In this document: in pieces, positions 6,001 through 27,728 of the stretch | Layout of the letters: each line of letters begins with the position of its first letter | Numbering within the stretch: position 1 is the first letter of the stretch | Assembly: GCF_004343705.1 (NCBI RefSeq) | Contig: NZ_SKFH01000084.1 | Coordinates: 1 to 40,857 of the forward strand | Reading direction: 5' to 3' | Origin: Flaviaesturariibacter aridisoli | Lineage (GTDB): Bacteria > Bacteroidota > Bacteroidia > Chitinophagales > Chitinophagaceae | Length of the DNA: 40,857 bases | Notes under the pieces: model-generated | Database searches by the model: none | What the model was told of the DNA's origin: nothing | What the model saw: the letters and a program-made list of their open reading frames with translations, nothing else | Translations under genes and position numbers: made by a program

Positions 6001-9000
6001 GACACCGGAGAGCTGCTGCCCACCGGGGTGACGGTAACCGTAGCCGTTGCCGGCGCATTGGTACCATTGACGGCCGTAAACGAAGCGATGTTCCCGCTGC
6101 CGCTGGCCGCCAGCCCGATCGACGGGTTGCTGTTCGTCCAGGTGTAGCTGCCGGCTGTGCCGCTGAAGGTCACCGCCGTGCTGGCGGCGCCCGCGCACAG
6201 CGCCTGGTTGCCCGGCGCATTCACGGTAACGCTGGCGTTGATCGTCACGCTCGCCGTGGCCGTCACCGCGCTGCAGCCGTTGGCAGCCGGAACGGTATAG
6301 GTTATCGTGTAGGTACCCGCCGTGCTGGCTGCCAGGTCGATGACGCCGGTAGTAGTGTTGATGCTGAGGCCGGAAGCCGATGTATACGTGCCGCCGCCCG
6401 TGCCGGTGCGGGTAGGGGTAGCCGTACCCGTTGCGCAAAAGGGCGAGCCGCTATAGGAGATCGTCGCCGCCGGCTGCGGGTTCACCGTAATGGTGAAGCT
6501 GCGCGACTGGCCCTGGCAACCATTGGCCGTGGGCGTTACGAAGATCGTGGCCGTTTGCGGCGTGCTGCCGGCGTTCACGGCCGTAAAGGATGGAATGTCG
6601 CCCGAGCCGCTGGCCGCCAGGCCGATGGAAGGATTGGCGTTCACCCAGCTATAGGTCGTTCCGGCTATGCCGCCCGAGAAGGTCACGGCCGCCGTCGCGC
6701 CGCCAGCGCAAACCGACTGGCTGCCGGGCACGTTGACCGAGGTCGACGGCTTCACTGTAATGGTGAACGTGTTGGCGTTGCCGGCGCAGGTCACGCCATT
6801 ATTGGTGTAAGACGGTGTTACGGTAAACAGGCCCGAAATGTTCGTCGTGCCCGGGTTGGTGCCGGTAAACGAGAGCCCGTTGCCCGAGCCCGTCGCATCG
6901 GCGCCGATGGCCGGGTTGTCGAGGGTCCAACTGTAGTCGGCGCCGGGCACGTTGCCGCCGTTCGAGATCGACAGGCCGATGCCCTGGTTGTTACAAATGG
7001 AAGTGGAGAAGCCCGCGTTGTTCCAGGAAGGCTTCGGGTTCACCGTCAGCGTAAAGGTCTTCGGCGTGCCGTTGCACTGGTAAGTAGCCGCCAGCATGTT
7101 GCCGATGCCGATGGGGCCGTTGGCGCCGGCAAAGGCTACCGTGCTGCCGGTGTTCAAAGACGCATCGATGATCGACAAGTTGTTCGAAAGGCGGTTGGCT
7201 ACGTACACCTTGCCACCGTCGGGCGACACCGAGATGCCGTACGGGTAGGTGCCCACCGGGATGTTTCCCAAAACCGTGTTGGTCGCCGTATTGATCACCG
7301 ACACCGCGTTGGAGGCGGCGTTGCTGACGTATACGCGGCTGCCGTCGGGCGAAATAGCGATGCCGAGCGGCGCCGTGCCCACGGGAATGTTCTGCACGGA
7401 ATAGGTGCTGGCGTCGATCACCGACACCGAGGCGTTGTTGGCGTTGGTCACATAGATAAAGCGTCCGTTGGGCGCTACGGCCACGCCCTGGGGATAGTCG
7501 CCTACCGCCACCGTCACGACCGTGTAGGGCGCCGTGGTATTGACCACGTACAGGTAACCGGGCGCCGTGGCCGAAGCGACGTATACCTTCTGGCCGTCGG
7601 GCGAAACCGCCATGCCTTCGGGGTTGGGCACGATCGCCATGAAGTTCGACACGTAGGTCGGGCTGCTCATGTCGATCCAGCTGAGCGCGCCGCTGTTGCC
7701 GGGGGTGTACCCGTTCACATACACGCGGCTGCCGTCGGGCGAAGGCACCAGGCCGTGCGGGTTGTTGTAGGGTGATGTGCCCACAACGGTATTGCTGGCG
7801 GTATTGATCACCGACACCACGTTACTGGCCGAAGAAGCCACCAGCACCTTGCTGCGGTCGGGCAGCACCGTCACGCCGAAGGGTCCGTTGGCCACGGGAA
7901 TAGTGGCTACCACGACATTGTTGGCCAGGTTCAGCACCGAAACCGTATTGCCGTTCAGGTTGGGAATGTAGGCGAAGCCCTGGAGGCCACTGCCCACTGG
8001 CGTTACCGTGATCGTGGACGTGAGGGGCGTGTTGCCGCCGTTGCTGGCGGTAAACGCCGCTATGTTGCCGCTGCCGCTGGCGGCGAGGCCGGTAGCCGTA
8101 TTGTTGTTGGTCCAGGTATAAGACCCGGCGGTGCCGGCGAAGGCGGTCAGCGTCGTGGTCGACCCGGCGCACGCCGTAGCGTTGGCAGGCTGCGTCACAT
8201 CGGCCTGCGTGTTGATGCCGATGCGCACCGACGACTGGGCCTGGCTGCAGCCGCCGGCGGCGGCCACCGTGTAGGTAACCGTGTAGAGGCCGGGCGTGGA
8301 AGCGGCCAGGTCGATGGCGCCGGTGCCGGCGTTGAGGGACAACCCCGCCGTGGAGGTCCAGGTGCCGCCGGCCGTGCCCGTAAGCGTGGGCATAGCCGTG
8401 CCCGAAGGGCAGAAAGGCGTGCCCGGGTAGGAGAAGGTGGCCGTCGGCTGTGCGTTCACGGTAACCGTAATGGGAGACGAGGCTTCGTTGCCGCAGATCC
8501 GCACGCGGTAAAAGCCGCTGGCAGTAGCCGTATACTGCTGGCTGGTTGCCCCGGGAATGGTCACCCAGGTGGTTCCGTTTGCCGAAGACTGCCATTCGTT
8601 GCCGTCCACCATGCTCGAGTTCATCGACACGAAACCGCCGGAGCAAACCGTGGTGGCACCGTCGGCGGTGGCGGTGGGGAACTTGTAGGCCTGGCTGTAC
8701 TTGTCGGAGAGGTAGCGGTTCACCGTCTGGATCTCGCAGCCCGTGAGCTTGCGCTCGTACACGATCATTTCGGCGATCTCGCCCTGGAAGAAATTATCGT
8801 CGCCGTCGTAGCCGATGCGCAGGGCGGTCTGGGCATTGCTGGCATGCGTAAAATCGGAGGTGGTGGCTACCAGCTGGCCATTGAAGTAAACGGCGCTCCC
8901 GTTGTCGACGCCGTTGTTGACGCCGCCGCTCACGTTGCCGTCGTACAGCGTGGTCACGAGCCGCACCAAACCGGGCGCACCCGCATTCGGGAGGTCGATG

Positions 9001-18964: not shown

Positions 18965-19228
18965 ATGACGAAGCGGTGGACCGGCTTAGGTTGTTTGTTG
19001 TTTTTTTGTCTGGACTGCGACGCGCAGCTGGGAAAGCCGCGCCCCGATTCGATTGCCCCTATATCTATAAAAACGGTGCCACCGGATTTCTATACCCGCC
19101 GGCTTTCGTTTTTCTGCCGCACCGAATGGTCGCTCCAAAAGGCGACGGGACGCCCGGTTTTCCTGCGCCTGGGCAGCAAGGAATATGTGGATTATTTGGA
19201 ACAGAAACCGGGCGCGAAGCGCCCGTGA
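18965..19228 (+). CDS. Small secreted conserved hypothetical protein
   Basis: An 87-residue protein with an N-terminal signal-like stretch (MTKRWTGLGCLLFFCLDCDA), then a region with FYTRRLSFFCRTEWSLQKAT and FLRLGSKEYVDYLEQKPG. I recall similar small proteins of unknown function, with the pattern FY-x-LSFFC-x-E followed by RLGS-x-EYV-x-LE, from other Bacteroidota; this is memory, not a search. It is divergent from rpoN. Its TGA stop is supplied by the first word of a heptamer repeat (CGTGAGG). Confidence 0.7.
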   Translation: MTKRWTGLGCLLFFCLDCDAQLGKPRPDSIAPISIKTVPPDFYTRRLSFFCRTEWSLQKATGRPVFLRLGSKEYVDYLEQKPGAKRP

Positions 19229-19342
19229 GGCTTGAGGCGCAAAGCGCGGCAAAAAGAACGGATGCCCAAGGCATCCATTCCTGATTACCGGCGTTAGCAC
19301 TCACGGCTCACGGCTCACGCCTCACGAACTTCCCACTTCCTT
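19224..19342. repeat. Composite repeat: heptamer arrays flanking a hairpin, copy A
   Basis: CGTGAGG (19224) and CTTGAGG (19231) start at the stop codon of the upstream gene. A hairpin follows at 19260-19276. Then, read on the minus strand, come GGAAGTG, GGAAGTT, CGTGAGG, CGTGAGC, CGTGAGC, CGTGAGT in 7-bp phase (about 19299-19340). The whole segment resembles copy B at 24342-24474, sharing the order GCGCGGCAAAAAGAACGGAT, hairpin, then TCACGGC heptamers. Confidence 0.8.
19250..19276 (-). terminator. Terminator hairpin at a convergent junction
   Basis: GGATGCC (19260-19266) and GGCATCC (19270-19276) form a stem with a 3-nt loop; on the minus strand the stem is followed by GTTCTTTTTG, giving a T-tract. 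It terminates the GHL10 gene transcribed from the right and may serve the small gene from the left. Confidence 0.7.
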
Positions 19343-19356
19343 TGCCGAAGGCCCAC

Positions 19357-20628
19357 TTAATTACTTGCTAGAGAGGGTCGCCCGGCCAGCCAGGGCATCG
19401 GCGGCACCTGCGCGGGTACGCGGTAATAATTCAGGCGGAGCGTATCGTTCCAGCCGTTCGGGTTGCGCTCGAAGCTTTTGGAGCTGAAGTAGAGCGAGCC
19501 CTGGATCTGCGGGTACTTCCGCAGCAACTCGATCTGCCGTGGGATCTGGTCCTGCCGCTTCCAGGCGGGATTGCTTTCGTAGTAGCGGTAGATGCCGTGG
19601 CCGATGTATACGTGGCGGCCATAGCTGTGCTTCGCCCACCAGTCTACCAATGTGGTATAGTCTGCCTTGGAGAAGCCGATCTCCCAATAGAGCTGCGGCG
19701 TCACGTAGTCGATCCAGCCTTTGCGGAGCCAGAGCAGGATGTCGGCATAGAGGTCGTCGTAATTCGTTTGACCCGCCTGCGTGGCCGAACCTTCGGGGTC
19801 GGTGCTCTTGTTGCGCCACACGCCGAAGGGCGAGATGCCGAACTTCACCCAGGGCTTTGCTTCCTTGATGGCGCGGCCGATCTTGTTGATGATGGAGTCG
19901 GTATTGCTGCGGCGCCAGGCACCTTTTTCGAGGCCGTTGCCATATTTGCGGAAGGAGGCGCTGTCCGGGAATTCCTTACCGGCGATGCGGTAGGGATAAA
20001 AGTAGTCGTCCATGTGAATGGCGTCCACGTCGTAACGGCTCACGATGTCGGTCACCACGTCCACCACCCACTGTTGCGCTTCGGGGTTGCCGGGGTCGAA
20101 GTAGCGGGTGCCGCCATAGTCGAGAAACCATTCAGGGTGTTGCTTCGTGATATGGCCGGGGGCGATGGAGGATTTGGCGATGCTGAAGGTGGCGCGGTAC
20201 GGGTTGAGCCAGGCGTGGTATTCCATGCCGCGCTTGTGGGCTTCTTCGACGCCGAAGGCCACGGGGTCCCAGAGGGGCAGCGGCGCGCGGCCTTGCTGGC
20301 CGGTAAGCCACTGGCTCCAGGGCTCGTAGGGCGAGGGGTAAAAGGCGTCGGCGGCGGGGCGCACCTGCACCACCATGGCGTTCATGCCGTTGGCCTTGTG
20401 CAGGTCCAGCTGGCGGCGGAAGTCGATCTGCTGTGAGTCGACGTTGTATTGCCCGCGTGCGGGCCAGTCGATATTGTCTACGGAAGCCATCCATACGCCG
20501 CGGAATTCATAGCGGGGCGCGCCGGAGGGCAGGCTGTCGCGGGAGGCCATCTTGCTGCTGTCCGCCACCTGGGCGAACGAGCAAACGGAAGCGAGTAAAA
20601 GCGACAGGAAGAAGGTGGCTTTTTTCAT
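19357..20628 (-). CDS. GHL10 (DUF187) family glycoside hydrolase, DigH-like
   Basis: A 423-residue exported protein with signal peptide MKKATFFLSLLLASVCSFAQ. Family knowledge: GHL10 proteins have a TIM-barrel fold; E. coli DigH (YddW) cleaves peptidoglycan strands stripped of stem peptides. Seen: EFRGVWMASVDNIDWP at about 41-56, VQVRPAADAFYPSPYEPWS at about 88-105, HAWLNPYRA at about 138-146, MDDYFYPY with Asp207 and Asp208, KFGISPFGVWRN, and DYVTPQLYWEIGF. Length is typical of the family. It is single, with MarR 88 bp upstream on the same strand, and is inferred to act on the periplasmic cell wall. Confidence 0.88.
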   Translation of the reverse strand: MKKATFFLSLLLASVCSFAQVADSSKMASRDSLPSGAPRYEFRGVWMASVDNIDWPARGQYNVDSQQIDFRRQLDLHKANGMNAMVVQVRPAADAFYPSPYEPWSQWLTGQQGRAPLPLWDPVAFGVEEAHKRGMEYHAWLNPYRATFSIAKSSIAPGHITKQHPEWFLDYGGTRYFDPGNPEAQQWVVDVVTDIVSRYDVDAIHMDDYFYPYRIAGKEFPDSASFRKYGNGLEKGAWRRSNTDSIINKIGRAIKEAKPWVKFGISPFGVWRNKSTDPEGSATQAGQTNYDDLYADILLWLRKGWIDYVTPQLYWEIGFSKADYTTLVDWWAKHSYGRHVYIGHGIYRYYESNPAWKRQDQIPRQIELLRKYPQIQGSLYFSSKSFERNPNGWNDTLRLNYYRVPAQVPPMPWLAGRPSLASN

Positions 20629-20716
20629 ACGATAACGGGTGGGGGTTCTTAAGACTGGCGGAATCCGCTCAAGATTACTAATAAACGAATTAAGGGGTGC
20701 ATCATTTAACGCGGCT

Positions 20717-21163
20717 TTAGCCGCGGATCTTATCCAGCAGGGTGCTGAGCTGGGCGGCTTCGTTCTCGCTAAGGCTTTTCATGATCGCCTGGATATGGTC
20801 ATCGCCCTTGTCGAGGCGCGCGAGCAGGGCGAGGCCCTTGTCGGATATGGTCACGTCCACGAGGCGCTTGTCTTTGGCGCAGGTCACCTTTTGCACCAGC
20901 TCCTTGGCCACGAGGCGGTCCACGATGCGCGAGGTGTCGCTCATTTTATCGAGCATCCGGGCGCGGATCTGCAGCGTCGACAGCGGCGCCGCCGCGCCGC
21001 GCAGGATGCGGAGGATGTTGTATTGCTGGTGTGTGATGTCTTCGCAGGCGAGAAAGGTTTTGATTTGCTCCATCACCCAGCCGTAGGTATACAGCAGGTT
21101 GATCATCGCTTTCTGCTTGGCGCTGACAAACTTTGTCTGGCGGATATCTTGTTCTAGACCCAT
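20717..21163 (-). CDS. MarR family transcriptional regulator
   Basis: A 148-residue winged-helix regulator. Seen: an N-terminal dimerisation helix, ITHQQYNILRILRGA at about 43-57, recognition region about 62-90 (STLQIRARMLDKMSDTSRIV), the wing DKRLVDVTISDKG at 98-110, and a C-terminal helix returning to the dimer interface. MarR proteins are dimeric repressors released by small ligands or oxidation; one Cys (Cys95) lies just before the wing. Its target is unknown. The GHL10 gene 88 bp downstream could be co-transcribed. A near-consensus -7 box precedes the start. Confidence 0.92.
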   Translation of the reverse strand: MGLEQDIRQTKFVSAKQKAMINLLYTYGWVMEQIKTFLACEDITHQQYNILRILRGAAAPLSTLQIRARMLDKMSDTSRIVDRLVAKELVQKVTCAKDKRLVDVTISDKGLALLARLDKGDDHIQAIMKSLSENEAAQLSTLLDKIRG

Positions 21164-21173
21164 ATAGCGGAAA

Positions 21174-21181
21174 TAAAGGTA
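21174..21181 (-). promoter_or_regulatory. Near-consensus -7 box before marR
   Basis: TACCTTTA on the minus strand, 10 nt before the ATG at 21163. It differs from TAnnTTTG only at the last base. Confidence 0.45.
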
Positions 21182-21198
21182 GGGAGCGGCCAGACAGC

Positions 21199-21261
21199 GA
21201 AGTCTTAAAGTGGGAGGTCGGAAGTTGGAAATTCGTGAGCCGCCGGGCGTGAAGCCTGAGC
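21199..21261. repeat. Heptamer array switching word type
   Basis: Nine in-phase 7-bp words from 21199: GAAGTCT, TAAAGTG, GGAGGTC, GGAAGTT, GGAAATT, CGTGAGC, CGCCGGG, CGTGAAG, CCTGAGC. The array passes from a GGAAGT-type to a CGTGAG-type word without losing phase, as on the minus strand at 19299-19340. Confidence 0.65.
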
Positions 21262-21321
21262 GCTGGCGCCGGTATCGAAAGGCTTAAGGCGTGGAGCACC
21301 CGTTTTCTGCCGCGCTTGCGG

Positions 21322-21363
21322 TTCACGGCTCACGCTTCACGCCTCACGTTTCACGTTTCCCAC
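21322..21363. repeat. Heptamer array containing the radical SAM stop codon
   Basis: Six in-phase words on the plus strand: TTCACGG, CTCACGC, TTCACGC, CTCACGT, TTCACGT, TTCCCAC. Read on the minus strand, the TGA stop of the radical SAM gene (21351-21353) lies inside one word, so the repeat and the coding end overlap. Confidence 0.75.
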
Positions 21364-22379
21364 ACCTTGACGCCCTCGGAGCAGTTGGCGCAGATATCGA
21401 TATTCTTACGGCTCTGCAGTACTTCGGTGCGGAAGCGCTGGTACTCGCCGCTGCGCCAGATGTCGGCAAAGGGGCGCTGGCGCAGGTGACCGAGGCGGTG
21501 CTGCGCATCCTTGTCGAAGCAGCAAGGCACCACGGCGCCGTCCCAGGTGATGACGGGATCGTGCCAGAGGCGCCAGCAGTGGTTGGCGTTGTTGCCCTTG
21601 AATTCCATCCGGCCCTCCGTATTTCTACGGTAGCGGCTGTATTTGCCATTTTGCGGAATGAGCCCGTTGGGATCGTTTTCGTAGTCGTATACCTGCGCGG
21701 TCTTGAACCACACATCATCCACCCCGATCTCTTTCGCCAGCTGCCGGACGTCTTCCACCTGGTGCTCGTTGTGGCGCACTACCAGGAACTGGAACACCAC
21801 GAAGGGCGTTTTGCTTTTGAGCTCCCGCTTCCACTTCACGACGTTGCGCGCGCCCTCGAGCACTTTGTCGAGGCGGCCGCCCACGCGGTATTGCTCGTAG
21901 GTTTCCTGCGTGGTGCCGTCGATGGAGATGATGAGGCGGTCGAGGCCGCTCTCCACGGTGCGGCGGGCTACGTCGTCTTTGAGGTAATGCGCATTCGTGG
22001 AGGTGGCGGTGTAGATCTTTTTTTGCGTGGCGTAGCGCACCATCTCCAGGAAACCGGGGTTGAGAAAGGGTTCGCCCTGGAAATAAAACACGAGGTAGCT
22101 CAGGTCGGGGGCGAGGCTGTCGATGGTGTCGCGGAAGAAGTCTTTCTGCAGCATCCCCGTGGGCCGTGTAAAGGCGCGGAGGCCCGAGGGGCATTCGGGG
22201 CAGCGCAGGTTACAGCTGGTGGTGGGCTCGAAAGAAATGGAGATGGGCATGCCCCAATGAACGGCCTTGCCGGTCCAGCGGCTCAGGTAGTACGAGCTCC
22301 ACACCTTCGTCATGTTCCACACACGGCGCGGCGTCAGCTTCGACAGGAAGTTCAGGCTATCGGTCCAGTTGAAGGGCAT
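21351..22379 (-). CDS. Radical SAM protein with SPASM domain
   Basis: A 342-residue radical SAM enzyme. Seen: the 4Fe-4S motif CNLRCPEC with Cys56, Cys60 and Cys63; a glycine-rich YFQGEPFLN segment; and a C-terminal SPASM region with Cys in HCWRLWHDP, VVPCCFD and CANC that should bind auxiliary clusters. SPASM enzymes modify peptides, proteins or cofactors; no precursor peptide or partner is adjacent, so the substrate is unknown. A TACCTTTG box lies 5 nt before the ATG, which supports this start. The stop codon is inside a heptamer array. Confidence 0.9.
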   Translation of the reverse strand: MPFNWTDSLNFLSKLTPRRVWNMTKVWSSYYLSRWTGKAVHWGMPISISFEPTTSCNLRCPECPSGLRAFTRPTGMLQKDFFRDTIDSLAPDLSYLVFYFQGEPFLNPGFLEMVRYATQKKIYTATSTNAHYLKDDVARRTVESGLDRLIISIDGTTQETYEQYRVGGRLDKVLEGARNVVKWKRELKSKTPFVVFQFLVVRHNEHQVEDVRQLAKEIGVDDVWFKTAQVYDYENDPNGLIPQNGKYSRYRRNTEGRMEFKGNNANHCWRLWHDPVITWDGAVVPCCFDKDAQHRLGHLRQRPFADIWRSGEYQRFRTEVLQSRKNIDICANCSEGVKVWET

Positions 22380-22384
22380 TCGCG

Positions 22385-22392
22385 CAAAGGTA
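22385..22392 (-). promoter_or_regulatory. TACCTTTG -7 box before the radical SAM gene
   Basis: A perfect TAnnTTTG match on the minus strand, 5 nt before the ATG at 22379, predicting a leaderless transcript. The rest of the 22380-22571 gap has no other recognisable signal. Confidence 0.6.
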
Positions 22393-22571
22393 GGCGGCGC
22401 GCCGCAAGCGGCGGAGAGAGAAACGACGCAGATCTTTTATGATTTTTAGGATGAACGCAGGTTTTCGTTCGTGTGCGTCGGTAACATCCCGACAACGGAT
22501 ATCCGGCTGCGCCTGCCGCCTGCCGTACCAGCATTGTTTCTCTGGGTTCCGCGCCTTGCCGGTTGCCGCCT

Positions 22572-23243
22572 TCAGTTGGACGGCCGCTCCACGCGGGTCT
22601 TGCGCAGGAACGTGCCGCCATAGACCATCTGGTAGCTGTTTTTGTACTTTTCATAACGCTCATTTGCCTGCTCGTGGTTGCGCACGGTTTGCAACAGCAC
22701 CCGCTGGGTGAAATAGGCGCTGCCGGCGCGGCGCCCCAAGCTTGGATCCACGGAGTACCAGGCAAAATCGGAGGTTTTATACGCATCGAGGTTGCTGTTG
22801 GCCATGGGCCGGAAATCGACCAGTAAGGTAAAGTGCGTGGAGTCTTTGAAGGCGTTGAAGTCGGCTTCCGAAAGTGTCACCGCGGGTTTCGGAGGCTCGG
22901 GACGCACAAACTGGAGTCGCTGGGACAGTTGCTGCGTACGATTCATGCGGCGAAACAGGGACAGCAGTTCGTCCTGCTCGGCCGCGGTGATGAGGCCGGC
23001 ATACGAATAAAAGGGCGCATCCGGTGCTAACCGGTGCTTCACCGCCAGCTCCTCGTATCGGGCCATTTCCGCAGCCGAAAGGCCTTCGGCCGTGGCGGGC
23101 GGGAAGTTGCGGGCGCGCACGGAATCGATTTGGGCCTGAACCTGGGTGCGCGTCATACCGGGCCCGGTGGACAGTGTAGCCTGTTGCGCGCCGGCAGTAA
23201 GGGAGAACAGGAGGGGAATCGAGGCGATGAGGAGCCTTTTCAT
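22572..23243 (-). CDS. Exported protein of unknown function
   Basis: A 223-residue protein with a clear signal peptide (MKRLLIASIPLLFSLTAGAQ). The mature part is mostly charged and helical, without Cys, membrane segments or a motif I recognise; AEMARYEELAVKHRLAPDAP and LLVDFRPMANSNLDAYKTSD are typical stretches. It is divergent from the GH25 gene, sharing a 77-bp intergenic region. Codon use matches the neighbours, so it looks native. No function assigned. Confidence 0.75.
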   Translation of the reverse strand: MKRLLIASIPLLFSLTAGAQQATLSTGPGMTRTQVQAQIDSVRARNFPPATAEGLSAAEMARYEELAVKHRLAPDAPFYSYAGLITAAEQDELLSLFRRMNRTQQLSQRLQFVRPEPPKPAVTLSEADFNAFKDSTHFTLLVDFRPMANSNLDAYKTSDFAWYSVDPSLGRRAGSAYFTQRVLLQTVRNHEQANERYEKYKNSYQMVYGGTFLRKTRVERPSN

Positions 23244-23287
23244 GACGGTGATTTAGGAACCGTAAGGTACTTCAATTCCCCTGTTCC

Positions 23288-23315
23288 TTGTTCTGCGGTT
23301 CCTTCCCTAGTTTCG
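23288..23315 (+). promoter_or_regulatory. Candidate promoter of the GH25 gene
   Basis: TTG (23288-23290), 17 bp, then TAGTTTCG (23308-23315), one mismatch from TAnnTTTG, ending 5 nt before the ATG at 23321. Confidence 0.45.
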
Positions 23316-23320
23316 CAGCC

Positions 23321-24106
23321 ATGGCCCGCTCCCGCCGCACGAAGCAAACCCGCAAATACGTCCAGCGCTTTATCGTGCTGGCGCTGCTGCTTGTGCTGGC
23401 CTGCCTCGGCTGGCTGACCTGGCTGTGGTGGCAGGAGCGCGACGAAACCGGCATGGTGCGCTACCCCGAGTTCGGCATTTCGATGCCCACGCAGTACGCC
23501 ATCCACGGTATCGATGTCAGCCGCTACCAGGAAGGCATCGGCTGGAGTTCGGTCAGCGCGATGGACATCGACGGCATCCGCATCGGATTTGCCTTCATCA
23601 AGGCCACCGAGGGCGTGTCGAGTGCCGACCCGCAGTTTCGCCGAAACTGGAAGGGGAGCAAAAAGGCGGGGATCGTGCGGGGTGCCTACCATTTTTTCAG
23701 TCCGGGCAAGAGCGGGCGCCTGCAGGCCGAGCACTTCATCCGCACCGTTCCCCTCGAGCAGGGCGACCTGCCGCCGGTGGTGGACATCGAAGGGGCGGCC
23801 AATGTAAAGCCCGACTTGCTGCGCCGCGAGCTGAAGGCCTGGCTCGACATCACCGAACGGTACTACGGCGTACGCCCTATTTTGTATACGTACCTCAATT
23901 TTTACGAGCGCTACCTGCAGGGGCATTTCGACGACTACCCGCTGTGGGTGGCGCACTACCTGCAGCCCGAGGGGCCGCGGATCACGCGCACCTGGGCCTT
24001 CTGGCAACACTCCGAGCAGGGCCACGTGAACGGCATCCGCGCACGCGTGGATTTCAACGTTTTCAGCGGCGACTCCACTGCTTTTCGCGCGCTCTTAGTA
24101 CCTTGA
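23321..24106 (+). CDS. Membrane-anchored GH25 lysozyme
   Basis: A 261-residue muramidase of glycoside hydrolase family 25, which cleaves the MurNAc-GlcNAc bond of peptidoglycan. Seen: basic N-terminus, one membrane anchor at about 16-37, then the family motifs HGIDVSRYQ (Asp65), FAFIKATEG (Glu97), GAYHFF, PPVVDIEG (Asp155 and catalytic Glu157), ILYTYLNFYERYL and WVAHYLQPEG. The start at 23321 is chosen because the longer frame adds only low-complexity residues and a -7-like box precedes it. The next gene begins 3 nt after the stop, so the two form an operon. The enzyme is inferred to face the periplasm. Confidence 0.92.
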   Translation: MARSRRTKQTRKYVQRFIVLALLLVLACLGWLTWLWWQERDETGMVRYPEFGISMPTQYAIHGIDVSRYQEGIGWSSVSAMDIDGIRIGFAFIKATEGVSSADPQFRRNWKGSKKAGIVRGAYHFFSPGKSGRLQAEHFIRTVPLEQGDLPPVVDIEGAANVKPDLLRRELKAWLDITERYYGVRPILYTYLNFYERYLQGHFDDYPLWVAHYLQPEGPRITRTWAFWQHSEQGHVNGIRARVDFNVFSGDSTAFRALLVP

Positions 24107-24109
24107 CGC

Positions 24110-24346
24110 ATGGATGAATACGACCGGAGCTTTGACCCCGAGATGCGGCGCTACCTGAAAAAAGTGCTCCGGACCCTGTTCCTGGGTCTTTTCTGGATGC
24201 TGTTCATGGCGCTCTTTGGCCTCTACCTCGGCTGGGGCATCGTGTACCGAGGCCGCGTCGACGGCTTCAATATTTTCTTCTACTGCTTTTTCGCCCTTTC
24301 CCTGACGGGGTTGATCTGGTATTACCGGCGCCTCTGGAAATCGTGA
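24110..24346 (+). CDS. Small membrane protein co-transcribed with the lysozyme
   Basis: A 78-residue protein: a charged N-terminus with many Arg/Lys, then two hydrophobic segments (about 23-46 and 55-70) ending in basic YYRRLWKS. No family recognised. It begins 3 nt after the GH25 stop, so it is probably translated from the same mRNA and may be involved with the envelope enzyme; that is inference from position only. Its TGA stop forms part of the first CGTGAGC heptamer of the following repeat. Confidence 0.75.
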   Translation: MDEYDRSFDPEMRRYLKKVLRTLFLGLFWMLFMALFGLYLGWGIVYRGRVDGFNIFFYCFFALSLTGLIWYYRRLWKS

Positions 24347-24474
24347 GCCGTCAGCCGTGAGCCGTGAGCAACGCGATGCGCGGCAAAAAGAACGGATGCC
24401 GTTGGCATCCGTTCTTCGTTATAGGCGTCAGCGCTCACGGCTCACGGCTGACGCCTCACGCTTCACGCTTCACG
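24342..24474. repeat. Composite repeat: heptamer arrays flanking a hairpin, copy B
   Basis: CGTGAGC, CGTCAGC, CGTGAGC, CGTGAGC run from 24342 in 7-bp phase, the first word carrying the stop codon of the upstream gene. The segment GCGCGGCAAAAAGAACGGAT and a perfect 11-bp hairpin follow. Then GCTCACG, GCTCACG, GCTGACG, CCTCACG, CTTCACG, CTTCACG run to 24474, the last containing the stop codon (24470-24472) of the convergent gene. Both neighbouring stops thus come from the repeat. Confidence 0.85.
24384..24420. terminator. Bidirectional terminator between convergent genes
   Basis: GAACGGATGCC (24390-24400), loop GTT, GGCATCCGTTC (24404-24414): a perfect 11-bp stem. On the minus strand it is followed by TTTTTG, on the plus strand by TTCGTT. 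It terminates the NTF2-like gene and probably the lysozyme operon. Confidence 0.85.
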
Positions 24475-24892
24475 ACGTGTGGTCCGACACGATCACCCAG
24501 CGGCCTTTCACCTTGCGGAACAGCAGGTCGTAGTGGCCGCCCACATCGCCTTTGCTGCGGGCGAGGTGCCACTTGCCCACCACGAAATAATAGTCCTTGG
24601 CGAGCCGCTTCAGCAGCAGCAGCTCGAACGAGAGCTTTCCCATGGTGGCGGTGTCGGGATAGCCCTTAAGGTAGTTGGCCAGCGTCTTGTCCCAGCCGTA
24701 GGTGAGGCCTTTGGAGCCGATGAACAGGAGGGAGTCGCTTTTCCAGTAGCCTTCCATGAAGGCGGGGATGTCGCCCCGGTTCCAGGCGGCCACCTGCCGG
24801 TCGAGCACGGCGCGCACGGCGGCTTCGTCGCGGCTTTGGGCGGCGGCAGACAACGTCAGGAACAGGCAGAGGGCGAGCAGGATCCGTTTCAT
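24470..24892 (-). CDS. Exported NTF2-like / DUF4440 family protein
   Basis: A 140-residue protein with signal peptide (MKRILLALCLFLTLSAAAQS) followed by a single NTF2-like cone fold: VRAVLDRQVAAWNRGDIPAF near the start and HYDLLFRKVKGRWVIVSDHT at the end are typical of the SnoaL/DUF4440 group. These domains bind or act on small molecules, or only stabilise partners; no catalytic residue set can be assigned. It is convergent with the lysozyme operon. Its TGA stop falls inside the CTTCACG heptamer array. Confidence 0.85.
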   Translation of the reverse strand: MKRILLALCLFLTLSAAAQSRDEAAVRAVLDRQVAAWNRGDIPAFMEGYWKSDSLLFIGSKGLTYGWDKTLANYLKGYPDTATMGKLSFELLLLKRLAKDYYFVVGKWHLARSKGDVGGHYDLLFRKVKGRWVIVSDHTS

Positions 24893-24905
24893 GGGCGGAA
24901 GATAC

Positions 24906-24937
24906 CGAAAAGGCCCCGACGGTTATCGTCGGGGCCT
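24906..24937 (-). terminator. Intrinsic terminator
   Basis: AGGCCCCGACG (24911-24921) and CGTCGGGGCCT (24927-24937) form a perfect 11-bp stem with loop GTTAT. On the minus strand it ends in TTTT, directly downstream of the small membrane protein stop at 24944. Confidence 0.85.
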
Positions 24938-24943
24938 GAGGCT

Positions 24944-25195
24944 TCATTGTATCCGCTTCGCTTTCGGCTTCCGCAGCTCCCAGAGCTCACCGAGGATCAC
25001 ACTAACGGCGACAGCGGTAAGAAACCAGGAGTTTTGCCGGCTGCCATTGGATGCTACCAGCCAGGCCATGGCGATAAGTACCAGGCTGCATCCGATCCGC
25101 ATGTAGGTCCGGGCAGGCCTTGTAATCCGCGACGTATAGTAGGCACCGCCGACCATTACGACAGCGAAAGCTACGACAAGGAGGATTTCATTCAT
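24944..25195 (-). CDS. Small integral membrane protein
   Basis: An 83-residue protein, almost wholly hydrophobic, with about three membrane segments (MNEILLVVAFAVVMVGGAYY; IGCSLVLIAMAWLVAS; WFLTAVAVSVILGELW) and a basic tail. No family recognised. It has its own terminator, and its start is 43 bp from the end of the next minus-strand gene, so it may be read from the same transcript as the secreted protein at 25239-25601. Function unknown. Confidence 0.7.
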   Translation of the reverse strand: MNEILLVVAFAVVMVGGAYYTSRITRPARTYMRIGCSLVLIAMAWLVASNGSRQNSWFLTAVAVSVILGELWELRKPKAKRIQ

Positions 25196-25238
25196 ATGGA
25201 GGTGGTTTTAATCCGGTAACAGAGAAGACGAACCGATC

Positions 25239-25601
25239 TCAAAGATTGCCCACTACAAAAGGCGCTTTTTTATTTCGGCAATTGCGCACGAATCCAAATT
25301 TCTGACCACTGAGCGAAGCACCGGCGTTTCCGGAAAACCCATCCGGTGTGTCCACAGAAAACTTCAGGTAGCTTAGGTGCCCTGATGCGTCGAATTTGCG
25401 CTGCAGGTAGCTGATCTTGAAATGCAGACTCGCCATGTTTTCCGCGATTCGATCCAGGTCCTTTTGACTCATCCGGTTGTGGAACAGAACCTTCACCTTT
25501 TTAGAGTCCTTGCAATTACTTTTGCTTTGGGCAAGAGCCGAAAGGGACAGGGTGCAAAAGGCCAGCACCAGAATGCGGCCTCTTGTTGCAAACTTTTTCA
25601 T
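25239..25601 (-). CDS. Small exported protein in a lower-GC patch
   Basis: A 120-residue protein with signal sequence (MKKFATRGRILVLAFCTLSL) and a mature part containing two Cys (CKDSKKVKV and FVRNCRNKKAP) and HFKISYLQRKFDASGHLSYL. No family recognised. Base composition is visibly lower in GC than the surroundings, as in the next gene, which suggests the two arrived together. Function unknown. Confidence 0.65.
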   Translation of the reverse strand: MKKFATRGRILVLAFCTLSLSALAQSKSNCKDSKKVKVLFHNRMSQKDLDRIAENMASLHFKISYLQRKFDASGHLSYLKFSVDTPDGFSGNAGASLSGQKFGFVRNCRNKKAPFVVGNL

Positions 25602-25678
25602 ACAGCTTTGGTTTTGATAAATTTAGAAATAAGCTCCGACAACTGAACAAATTAACGTCGAACTGGTCGTCGCGATCC

Positions 25679-26431
25679 TTAGTCCTTGCAGCAATAACAG
25701 CGAGTAGATTTAGCGGAGCAGCAAGAATAATAGCCATCCTTACAATGCACTTTACAGGTTTGATTGATACCCATATACTCTTCTTTAATTTCACAATCCG
25801 ATGAACCTGCCCCACCTGAAGTACACGATCCTTTCGAACAGATATTTTCAGCAAGGGGCGCGTTTTTCGCGAAATCCTCGGCCTCTTTACTAATCCCATT
25901 GCGGCCGGTAACATCTGCTGCAGCCAGGTAATTGAATGGATCCTGATAAGTGCTTTTTGCCAACGCATCCCCTTTCCAACCACCAGTCAGGTAGGATAGT
26001 CCGTAAGCAAGGAAAACGTCGCTGGCCAGGTTTTTTCCGATGATCTCGTTGTTTCTCAACCTTTCGATTTCTTTTTGCGTTTCCGCTTCATCTAGGCCGA
26101 ATACAAACACTTTTTCGAGTTGGTTGTCGATCAGGAAGACTACTCTTTGATCCTTATGAATAAAAATCGAGGCTTGCTTGCTGCTCAGTTCCGGAAAGGG
26201 TTGTGCCTTATCGGATGTCAACACAAATGCACGATCATAAAGGTTCGATGATGTCGTACTGAGCGTCAGGACAGCGGTATTGACCTTTGTTTGGTGCACT
26301 TGAACAGAGCCAGATAAAGACTCGTAAAACTGGTTGGAATAGAGAGCGCGAACTGCGTCAGTAATCTTGGTTTGGGCATGGGCATTTAGGAACACTACCA
26401 GTGCCAGAATAAAAAATAGGAAGCTTTTCAT
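25679..26431 (-). CDS. Exported protein with a cysteine-rich C-terminal tail
   Basis: A 250-residue protein starting at the ATG at 26429-26431, which gives a clean signal peptide (MKSFLFFILALVVFLNAHAQ); a longer open frame runs upstream but enters promoter-like DNA. The body (about 21-190) has no recognised domain. The last 55 residues carry ten Cys, ending in a compact motif with CKVHC, GYYSCCS and RCYCC that looks like a disulfide knot. Similar short Cys tails occur on small secreted Bacteroidota proteins of unknown role (memory, not search). A sample line (26041-26100) is 43 percent GC against 65 percent in neighbouring coding DNA, suggesting recent transfer. A secreted toxin, bacteriocin-like or adhesive role would be speculation. 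Confidence 0.75.
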   Translation of the reverse strand: MKSFLFFILALVVFLNAHAQTKITDAVRALYSNQFYESLSGSVQVHQTKVNTAVLTLSTTSSNLYDRAFVLTSDKAQPFPELSSKQASIFIHKDQRVVFLIDNQLEKVFVFGLDEAETQKEIERLRNNEIIGKNLASDVFLAYGLSYLTGGWKGDALAKSTYQDPFNYLAAADVTGRNGISKEAEDFAKNAPLAENICSKGSCTSGGAGSSDCEIKEEYMGINQTCKVHCKDGYYSCCSAKSTRCYCCKD

Positions 26432-26623
26432 GTTAAAAGTGTTTATTAGGTCCCTACTCTTTGAACCGGATTTTCGGGATGCTCCGTCCATGGCCATTGG
26501 AGCAACCAAGGTACTTTCCCCGGAAGGGCGTTTCCATGTGAAAAAACACAGAAAAAAATGTTTTTTTTCCCATCGCGGGGTGCCGGCCCCATCAGCGTCA
26601 GGCCCCGGAGGCCGCGCCGGCCG

Positions 26624-26631
26624 TACCTTTG
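26624..26631 (+). promoter_or_regulatory. TACCTTTG -7 box before the SCO gene
   Basis: A perfect TAnnTTTG match ending 4 nt before the ATG at 26636, implying a leaderless transcript. The 26432-26623 gap also holds A- and T-rich runs near 26540-26572 but no other clear signal. Confidence 0.6.
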
Positions 26632-26635
26632 CCGC

Positions 26636-27244
26636 ATGTCGCGCAAACGCCTTTTTTACGTGGGGTTCTTCTCCATACTGTTCCTCGGCTTCGTAGCCGC
26701 GCTGGCCATCGCCGTGCCCGATTTCTTCAAGAACCGCCTGCCACCGGTATCGGAAGTGCAACCCTTCTCCTTTATCAACCAGGACGGCCGGACGGTCACC
26801 GAAAAGGACATCGCCGGCAAAGTGACCGCGGTGAACTTCTTTTTCACCACCTGCAAGAGCGTTTGCCCCAAGATGAACAACAACCTGAAGCCGATCTACG
26901 AGGCGTTCAAAGGGGAAAAGGACTTCCTCCTGCTGTCGCATACCTCCGACCCCGGCCGCGACTCCGCCGCCACCCTGAAACGTTATGCCGATTCGATGGG
27001 CGTGAACACGCAGCAATGGATGTTTCTTACGGGCCGCAAAGACAGCCTGTACAAGGCCGCCCGCCTCAGCTACAAGATCGACGACCCCAACAACAGCGTG
27101 GCCAACATCGACGACGACTTCCTGCACACCCAGTTCGTGGCGCTGGTAGACCGCGACGGCAAAGTGCTGCACATCTACGACGGGCTGAAAACAAGTGAAT
27201 TGAAGGAAATGGAGGCAGAGATCCGTAAATTGCTGAAGAAATAA
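26636..27244 (+). CDS. SCO family copper-binding protein
   Basis: A 202-residue thioredoxin-fold protein of the SCO1/SenC group, which delivers copper to the CuA site of cytochrome c oxidase or acts as a thiol redox protein. Seen: N-terminal membrane anchor about 7-27, then VNFFFTTCKSVCPKMNNNL with the copper ligands Cys73 and Cys77, and the third ligand His164 in DDFLHTQFVALVDRDG. The start is supported by the adjacent -7 box and by the anchor. The Fur family gene begins 8 nt downstream on the same strand, so they form an operon; linked metal control is a reasonable inference. Confidence 0.92.
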   Translation: MSRKRLFYVGFFSILFLGFVAALAIAVPDFFKNRLPPVSEVQPFSFINQDGRTVTEKDIAGKVTAVNFFFTTCKSVCPKMNNNLKPIYEAFKGEKDFLLLSHTSDPGRDSAATLKRYADSMGVNTQQWMFLTGRKDSLYKAARLSYKIDDPNNSVANIDDDFLHTQFVALVDRDGKVLHIYDGLKTSELKEMEAEIRKLLKK

Positions 27245-27252
27245 AGCTGCCC

Positions 27253-27696
27253 ATGGGCGCCTCCACACACAAAGCAACAGAAGCCCGCATCGCCGAGATC
27301 CTGCGGCGCAAAACCCTCAGCATCACCGACAGCCGGAAGAAGATCCTGTCCATCTTCCTGGCGCACCCCGACGCGCTCGCACATGGCGACATTGAAAAAA
27401 AGGCCGGCGAGAAATTCGACCGCGTAACCGTATACCGCACGCTCCAGACTTTCGTGGATAAAGGCATCCTCCATACCATTCCCACCGCAGACAACTCAGT
27501 GCTCTATGCCCTGTGCAAGGACTGCGACGAAGGCCACCACCACGACGACCACGTGCATTTCATCTGCAACAACTGCCACAAAACCTACTGCCTCGACGGC
27601 GTGGTCACGCCGCGCATCAACCTGCACGAAGGCTACCGCGCCAGCTCGGTGCAGGTGCTTATGCACGGCATCTGCCGGGAGTGCAACCCGGGATGA
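27253..27696 (+). CDS. Fur family metal-responsive repressor
   Basis: A 147-residue Fur/Zur/PerR-type regulator. Seen: winged helix about 15-85 with DIEKKAGEKFDRVTVYRTLQ, a His-rich hinge EGHHHDDHVHF (His95-97, 100, 102), and two structural zinc pairs, Cys105/Cys108 (CNNC) and Cys141/Cys144 (CREC). Whether it senses iron, zinc or peroxide cannot be decided. It lies in an operon with the SCO copper protein, so it may control metal supply to respiration (inference). Its TGA stop is part of the first word of a GGGAAGT-type heptamer array. Confidence 0.9.
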   Translation: MGASTHKATEARIAEILRRKTLSITDSRKKILSIFLAHPDALAHGDIEKKAGEKFDRVTVYRTLQTFVDKGILHTIPTADNSVLYALCKDCDEGHHHDDHVHFICNNCHKTYCLDGVVTPRINLHEGYRASSVQVLMHGICRECNPG

Positions 27697-27728
27697 AGTG
27701 GGAAGTGGGAAGTGCGAAGTCGGAAGTA
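27692..27728. repeat. Heptamer array starting at the Fur gene stop codon
   Basis: In-phase words GATGAAG (27692, containing the TGA stop), TGGGAAG, TGGGAAG, TGCGAAG, TCGGAAG. The GGAAGT word type also occurs on the minus strand at 19328-19340 and at 21213-21240. The remaining gap to 27784 holds a small AAAGTACTTT palindrome. Confidence 0.75.

Follow-up and report, generated by a model that had tools for sequence, protein, structure and literature searches.

Tandem heptanucleotides are known from cyanobacteria such as Calothrix, where they are called STRR sequences. Here we describe imperfect 7-nt arrays that lie at the stop codons of genes in Flaviaesturariibacter aridisoli (Bacteroidota, Chitinophagaceae), a pattern first noted in a 40,857-bp stretch of its genome, contig NZ_SKFH01000084.1 (contig 84 of a 4.37-Mb draft in 84 contigs; hereafter the window). 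The most closely related described repeats are the GGGAATC heptamers of Xanthomonas and the GGGGA(C/T)T heptamers of Nostoc, which, according to the passages of PMC4692102 considered here, are intergenic, lie on the sense strand after stop codons and on the antisense strand before start codons, come close to stop codons to the point of overlap, and are scarce between divergent genes. Inverted pairs number 70 in Xcc and 75 in Xac, with few in Nostoc, and the authors of those passages found no detailed literature on the origin of heptameric repeats (PMC4692102). The arrays of F. aridisoli share with these repeats the tandem 7-nt unit, the intergenic and multicopy occurrence, the polarity and the inverted pairs. 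They differ in that the same passages report one G-rich family per organism, a link to G-quadruplexes and distances in 50-bp bins, whereas F. aridisoli has many families, several of them without G-runs, an anchoring to within a few nucleotides, and a change of family in a congener. The STRR sequences, which PMC4692102 mentions, are a further point of comparison. One genome can have several such heptanucleotide families.

Further points of comparison come from repeats that overlap stops, or that combine tandem units with palindromes. The TAACTGA direct repeats of Beggiatoaceae, Cyanobacteria and some Bacteroidetes are mostly intergenic; 13 sets overlap the stop codon of the upstream gene, and the forward repeats hold stops in all three frames and necessarily end open reading frames (ORFs), according to the passages of PMC4679880 considered here. 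They differ from our arrays in their single fixed unit, in the role in translational regulation at start codons proposed for them and in the one indirect repeat in the draft genome, and those passages of PMC4679880 contain no general anchoring at stops. The TAACTGA unit is not among the period-7 families listed for our genome sample. BrickBuilt, a miniature inverted-repeat transposable element (MITE) of Porphyromonas gingivalis, also of the Bacteroidota, resembles our arrays in placing tandem repeats within a small inverted-repeat element but, in the portion of PMC4596501 drawn on here, has a 23-nt minisatellite unit in 19 copies and lies 49-591 nt from coding sequences. Palindromes of the intrinsic-terminator type past stop codons peak at +50 to +80 (PMC13155455, in part), whereas the arms described here are tandem heptamers beginning at the stop. 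The preliminary description of the window knew no named element with such behaviour; this was too sweeping, since the cited parts of PMC4692102 describe heptamers of like polarity that are likewise close to stops, and those of PMC4679880 describe TAACTGA repeats that overlap stops. Searches of the open-licence PMC literature listed, judged by title and start of abstract, no report that places stop-anchored heptamers of several families in Bacteroidota or describes one family taking the place of another at a given stop. New here are the occurrence in Bacteroidota, the many families, the nucleotide-level anchoring, the replacement of one family by another at the same stop, and the families without G-runs.

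Results

The heptamer arrays of F. aridisoli are real and are placed at gene ends with a precision of a few nucleotides, and the effect is genome-wide; two congeners (G016 and G010) agree less strongly. The genome (G000) was sampled in 840,857 of its 4,374,430 bases (19%), on contigs taken from those listed with CGTGARN matches, a choice that may raise array density but should not affect distance to stops, and genes were taken from our own caller (hexamer model, 708 genes) rather than from annotation. Most congener stretches were picked for synteny with two stretches of F. aridisoli and with the window. At the stop borders of array-bearing spacers, an array edge lay within -10 to +5 nt in 48/105 cases, compared with a mean of 18.4 and a maximum of 30 when the same arrays were placed at random in the same spacers (2,000 trials). 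The corresponding counts were 16/53 in G016 (null 8.4), 17/50 in G010 (null 7.3) and 11 in the pooled named relatives (loci L072-L150; null 4.5); when the latter were binned by GC content, no stop borders were reported in the lowest bin and the next gave 1/11. The preliminary description had let its idea stand or fall with a scan of period-7 arrays against distance to stops, and in the sampled 19% of the genome the enrichment is present.

Anchoring was also measured by a test that needs no array calling, in which base i is matched to base i+7. Over 517 gene ends of F. aridisoli, the self-match at lag 7 rose from 0.253 at -30 to -12 to 0.354 at nt 0-14, with other lags at 0.266. At a per-end threshold of at least 12/21 matches just past the stop, 82/506 ends, about one in six, qualified at lag 7, against 2-15 at other lags; 37/214 did so in G016 and 44/258 in G010. 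In the named relatives period 8 was nearly as common as period 7 (35/764 and 47/764 ends, respectively). None of 22 ends from E. coli reached the lag-7 threshold, and 105 ends from order-level relatives gave no signal (p 0.25). An assembly artefact as the source of the arrays is made less likely by the single-contig genomes G003 and G015, which also show heptamers at some stops (7 among the rows listed); in these two genomes neither the border enrichment (2/6, p 0.34; 3/16, p 0.07) nor the lag-7 excess (p 0.43 and 0.18) was significant.

Many heptamer families are in use, with short arrays of typically some 20-50 bp. Common words past the stop are AGTTTGT, CGTGAGC and GATGTCG in F. aridisoli, AAAAGTC and CGTGAAT in G016, and GAATATC in G010. 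Three CGTGARN units in succession, with at most one mismatch, gave 556 matches in the F. aridisoli genome (259+297 over both strands) versus one for the reversed pattern, and exact triplets occurred in 11 of 38 genomes, its own included. A CGTGARN profile recovered 71 arrays from the sample and 4 from Markov-shuffled sequence; 64 of the 71 were intergenic, and the 7 inside called genes were all antisense. Tandem Repeats Finder (TRF) returned 105 intergenic rows of period 7 with at least 3 copies, alongside 23 of period 8, 12 of period 9 and 1 of period 6, and 7 period-7 rows inside genes. In F. aridisoli, arrays were borne by 17/90 convergent, 69/340 tandem and 6/107 divergent spacers.

According to the preliminary description, the arrays supply the stop codons of the genes that they follow. 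For 36 CGTGARN arrays with a same-strand gene upstream, the first CGTGA lay at -2 from the first base of the stop in 9, at +4 in 7, at +6 in 5, at +8 to +14 in 5, and farther away in 10. The proposal is therefore borne out by 9 of the 26 stop-adjacent arrays (-2 to +14) and fails for the other 17, where a separate stop precedes the array; the 26 stops comprise 17 TGA, 6 TAA and 3 TAG. CG seldom stands before a TGA stop (13/257 genes of the sample), and 9 of these 13 are array genes. The supply of stops by arrays as a rule is thus not supported, because most arrays follow an intact TAA, TAG or TGA. Nor is the stop always the first array word: this holds for the 9 F. aridisoli cases, but two G016 orthologues, those of C1:131262 and C5:27006, extend into the array words by a few codons before their stop.

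Whether at a stop or at a start, nearly all arrays read away from the gene and into the spacer, and families mostly keep a single polarity (AGTTTGT in 16/16 arrays, AGGCGTG in 10/10), with four small families mixed. Since arrays read inward from the gene edge, two arrays of one spacer form an inverted repeat. Spacers with two or more arrays numbered 50 across F. aridisoli, G016, G010 and the named relatives; same-family pairs were inverted in 41 of them and direct in 0 (0.116 and 0.125 for random pairs), with 9 falling into neither class. Some of the inverted pairs flank a terminator-like hairpin.

Gene ends were compared over 216 reciprocal-best orthologue pairs of F. aridisoli with G016 and G010, in which 'no array' stands for no TRF array, several such relatives showing degraded heptamers by eye. 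The end position was identical in 20/22 pairs with an array only in F. aridisoli, in 10/14 with arrays in both species, in 5/10 with an array only in the relative, and in 123/170 without an array. The same end codon in 20 of the 22 pairs of the first class indicates that arrays were laid down at pre-existing stops, and the stops are mostly older than the arrays. In most pairs, then, the two orthologues share their end codon whether or not an array is present, and the conservation of arrays as coding sequence only, which the preliminary description had named as evidence against its idea, was not found. Where both species have an array, families assigned by eye are shared in 9 pairs with G016 and differ in 5 pairs with G010; the convergent spacer at C5:28229, for example, has CGTGAGC in F. 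aridisoli and GAATANN in G010 at both ends. Place and period are therefore conserved while the heptamer sequence changes at some of the same stops. When just one of two species has an array, the orthologous spacers are not clearly longer (cases with the array only in F. aridisoli: convergent, 2 and 4; tandem, 13 and 15), so the change looks like rewriting and not like net insertion, a candidate that these few cases weaken.

Within the window, five arrays had been described as beginning inside stop codons. This is clear at 21351-21353 (-), 24344-24346 (+) and 24470-24472 (-), where the sequence, TRF and the CGTGARN profile all show the TGA inside the CGTGA word with which an array of some 4 to 7 words begins, and weaker at the remaining two. 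The genes are unrelated, as stated at the time: they encode a radical SAM/SPASM protein, a DUF4440 protein and FUR, and two have no Pfam match. The CGTGARN array at 21319..21359 (-; TRF, profile) has the TGA of the radical SAM/SPASM gene (21351-21353) in its first CGTGA word. In L071, the top match of 80 retained loci, from the Chitinophagaceae metagenome-assembled genome PMG_218 (radical SAM protein 89% identical; the next best loci are from Flaviaesturariibacter and Flavisolibacter), CGTGA words continue from the stop-holding CGTGA at this gene end, their spacing being irregular initially.

The other two clear sites face each other across a convergent stop-to-stop spacer (24342..24474) that RNA folding presents as one long palindrome, with -87.3 kcal/mol versus -47.7 +/- 3.8 for 200 shuffles (z -10.4). 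Its left arm is the CGTGARN array at 24339..24368 (+), with the TGA of a 78-aa ORF (24344-24346) in the first word, and its right arm the CGTGARN array at 24428..24476 (-), with the TGA of the DUF4440 gene (24470-24472) in the first word; both were found by TRF and profile. Between the two arms, at 24388..24416, stands the terminator-like hairpin AAGAACGGATGCC-GTT-GGCATCCGTTCTT, with a 13-bp stem and a 3-nt loop, and by eye this AAGAACGGATGCC/GGCATCCGTTCTT hairpin or a similar core also lies between CGTGA arms in several other array-bearing spacers. For the 78-aa ORF, L071 is without the array and ends in TAG one codon earlier, and L072 matches to the final residue and ends in TAA. The DUF4440 gene shares its end codon and its TGA with L071, L073, L076 and L077, which have no such array in the following 60 nt. 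At this stop the array-free L071 already reads TCGTGAGG, so the array there may have been preceded by a seed word.

Of the two weaker sites, 27694-27696 (+) does have an array starting inside the stop, the GGAAGTN array at 27695..27727 (+; TRF), which begins within the TGA of the FUR gene; its first word, however, is TGAAGTG, and only the GA of the TGA fits GGAAGTN. FUR gene tails differ among relatives, and L071 is without an array at this end. At 19226-19228 (+) one CGTGAGG word and a degraded CTTGAGG are present, but no array is called. The gene end itself is likely, because the final 46 codons of this small ORF are conserved in L071 (80% identical, with an identical TGA). The site belongs to a degraded palindromic module at 19223..19339, made up of the CGTGAGG word in the stop of the small ORF, a terminator-like hairpin and an inverted arm, which matches 24355-24471 at 81%. 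The right arm of this module is a CGTGARN array at 19300..19326 (-; sequence, TRF, profile) that lies 30 nt past the TAA (19357-19359) of a GHL10 gene, with GGAAGTGGGAAGT words between.

Discussion

We infer that the arrays form the arms of intergenic palindromes at the 3' ends of genes and that they arise in place through replication errors with a step of 7 nt, a reading to which we give slightly less than an even chance (about 0.46). A spacer, often with a central terminator-like hairpin, bears an imperfect 7-mer array on one or both sides, which would be written and rewritten in place by a process such as slippage in hairpin-prone DNA. Arrays may spread across the dispensable spacer and be halted at the coding edge by purifying selection, while units with a stop word (CGTGA, GTAGTTT, TCTGATG) could cross the native stop harmlessly, which would account for arrays that hold the stop themselves. 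The benefit, if there is any, may be a longer 3' hairpin around the terminator, and reinforcement of the latter is possible.

Several results weigh against this proposal. Arrays sit at the stop edge of the spacer without filling it, which does not follow from the mere occupation of free DNA by itself, and start borders show no enrichment (an array edge within -10 to +5 in 9/83 cases in F. aridisoli, null 13.7); the filling of free space alone is insufficient to explain a stop-edge position that comes without filling and without an equal enrichment at starts. In G016, a first smaller set gave 14/29 stop borders and the enlarged set 16/53, the added stretches contributing little. The arms of one spacer match by family and not unit by unit (mean rank 0.476, with 0.5 expected; p 0.18-0.30). 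As they are no closer to each other than to same-family arms elsewhere, there is no sign of palindromic copying or of selection for exact pairing, and copying between arms is left unsupported as a candidate origin. Finally, the median fold z of convergent spacers was -5.2 without an array (n 19), -3.0 with one (n 10) and -7.3 with at least two (n 4), in a comparison (15 shuffles each) of all array-bearing spacers of 40-250 bp with 120 array-free ones.

The main competitor of in-place origin is a mobile palindromic element, related in kind to MITEs or to repetitive extragenic palindromic (REP) sequences, whose ends are heptamer arrays and which inserts at gene ends, the intervening spacer being deleted later. 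The CGTGA-armed module with a AACGGATGCC hairpin is multicopy in F. aridisoli, G016 and G010, with full-length matches about 74-88% identical; the 41 inverted arm pairs among 50 spacers are arranged like the inverted terminal repeats of such an element; and a second palindromic repeat family of the genus, devoid of heptamer arms, is also often near stops (edge at -12 to +15 in 3/6 copies in F. aridisoli, 1/4 in G016 and 3/9 in G010). However, no full-length copy of the module exceeds 88% identity among the matches listed (in F. aridisoli, 16 of 275 candidates scored), no target-site duplication was seen in the few spacers inspected for one, and the two borders of one spacer can bear two different families (C1 183933, C5 102761). 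Arrays abut TAA, TAG and TGA alike, so no target sequence is shared at the stop, and in the few cases available spacers with arrays are not clearly longer. We consider a mobile element rather improbable on this evidence. Selection of the arrays as 3' signals, in which stop words in several frames catch read-through and frameshifting, appears less likely again. Arrays at stop borders do hold stops in more frames (of 3) on the gene strand than on the complement, with 1.78 and 0.65 in F. aridisoli, 1.91 and 1.13 in G016, and 1.94 and 0.67 in the named relatives, and start borders lack this contrast in G016 (1.31 vs 1.23) and in the named relatives (1.80 vs 2.00), as such selection predicts. Yet F. 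aridisoli, the largest set, shows an equal contrast at start borders (1.86 vs 0.67), where no translation ends, the contrast at stop borders of G010 is small (1.31 vs 1.00), GGAAGTN is usually without a stop, and only 15/60 stop-border arrays of F. aridisoli close all three frames.

A G-quadruplex element, as has been proposed for the Xanthomonas and Nostoc heptamers, would fit the polarity, stop proximity and inverted pairs, all of which recur in the passages of PMC4692102 considered, and G exceeds C on the inward strand in 54/60 stop-border arrays of F. aridisoli. The GAATATC, AGTTTGT and AAAAGTC families nevertheless have no runs of three G and the same placement at stops, judged by sequence only; since period and position hold without G-runs, we regard this explanation as very improbable. 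Slimmer still are the chances that ordinary terminators combine with coincidence or with errors of gene calling. Convergent spacers do fold strongly with or without arrays, and some of the gene ends belong to short ORFs, but the placement and lag controls contradict chance, end positions are conserved in orthologues, and the same caller gave no signal in E. coli or in order-level relatives, both sampled on a small scale.

Returning to in-place origin by a 7-nt step, the orthologue comparison shows that period and place can be separated from sequence, features that were tied together in earlier work. The persistence of period and place through a replacement of the sequence argues against a sequence-specific or G-quadruplex cause in general. 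In a wider form of the proposal, which we offer with considerable doubt, gene 3' ends of some bacteria would be a preferred birthplace for such arrays: a sequence-independent process, advancing 7 nt at a time, would write them at stop codons with a fixed polarity and a changing sequence. The heptamers of Xanthomonas, Nostoc and Beggiatoaceae would then be further cases of it and no G-quadruplex or single-motif systems. How heptameric repeats originate becomes testable with closely related strains compared at orthologous stops. For annotation, the last codons of some genes, namely CG-TGA ends and short array-coded tails, may derive from repeats.

Additional observations

An Rfam search gave a single match, unrelated to the arrays: a DUF805b cis-regulatory RNA at 26451-26487 (-; 39.9 bits against a cut-off of 35.6), located shortly upstream of the gene called at 25679-26431. 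Elsewhere in the genome, a second interspersed palindrome at L037:7585-7712 (C1:127585-127712 of F. aridisoli) starts with AAAGAACGCTGATTC and ends near AATCTGCGTTC; it has many matches in G016 and G010 and no heptamer arms, yet some copies begin a few nucleotides from a stop. Words of the CCATCCCC type, a non-heptamer repeat, recur directly past stops of F. aridisoli (10 early, 0 late). On the start side, CGTGA arrays of F. aridisoli at C1:262823-262853, C1:315604-315641, C1:234513-234546 and C6:76550-76589 (sample C6b 6550-6589) end 27-29 bp before the ATG, beside a TAnnTTTG-like sequence that resembles the Bacteroidota promoter motif, as if the promoter bounded the array.

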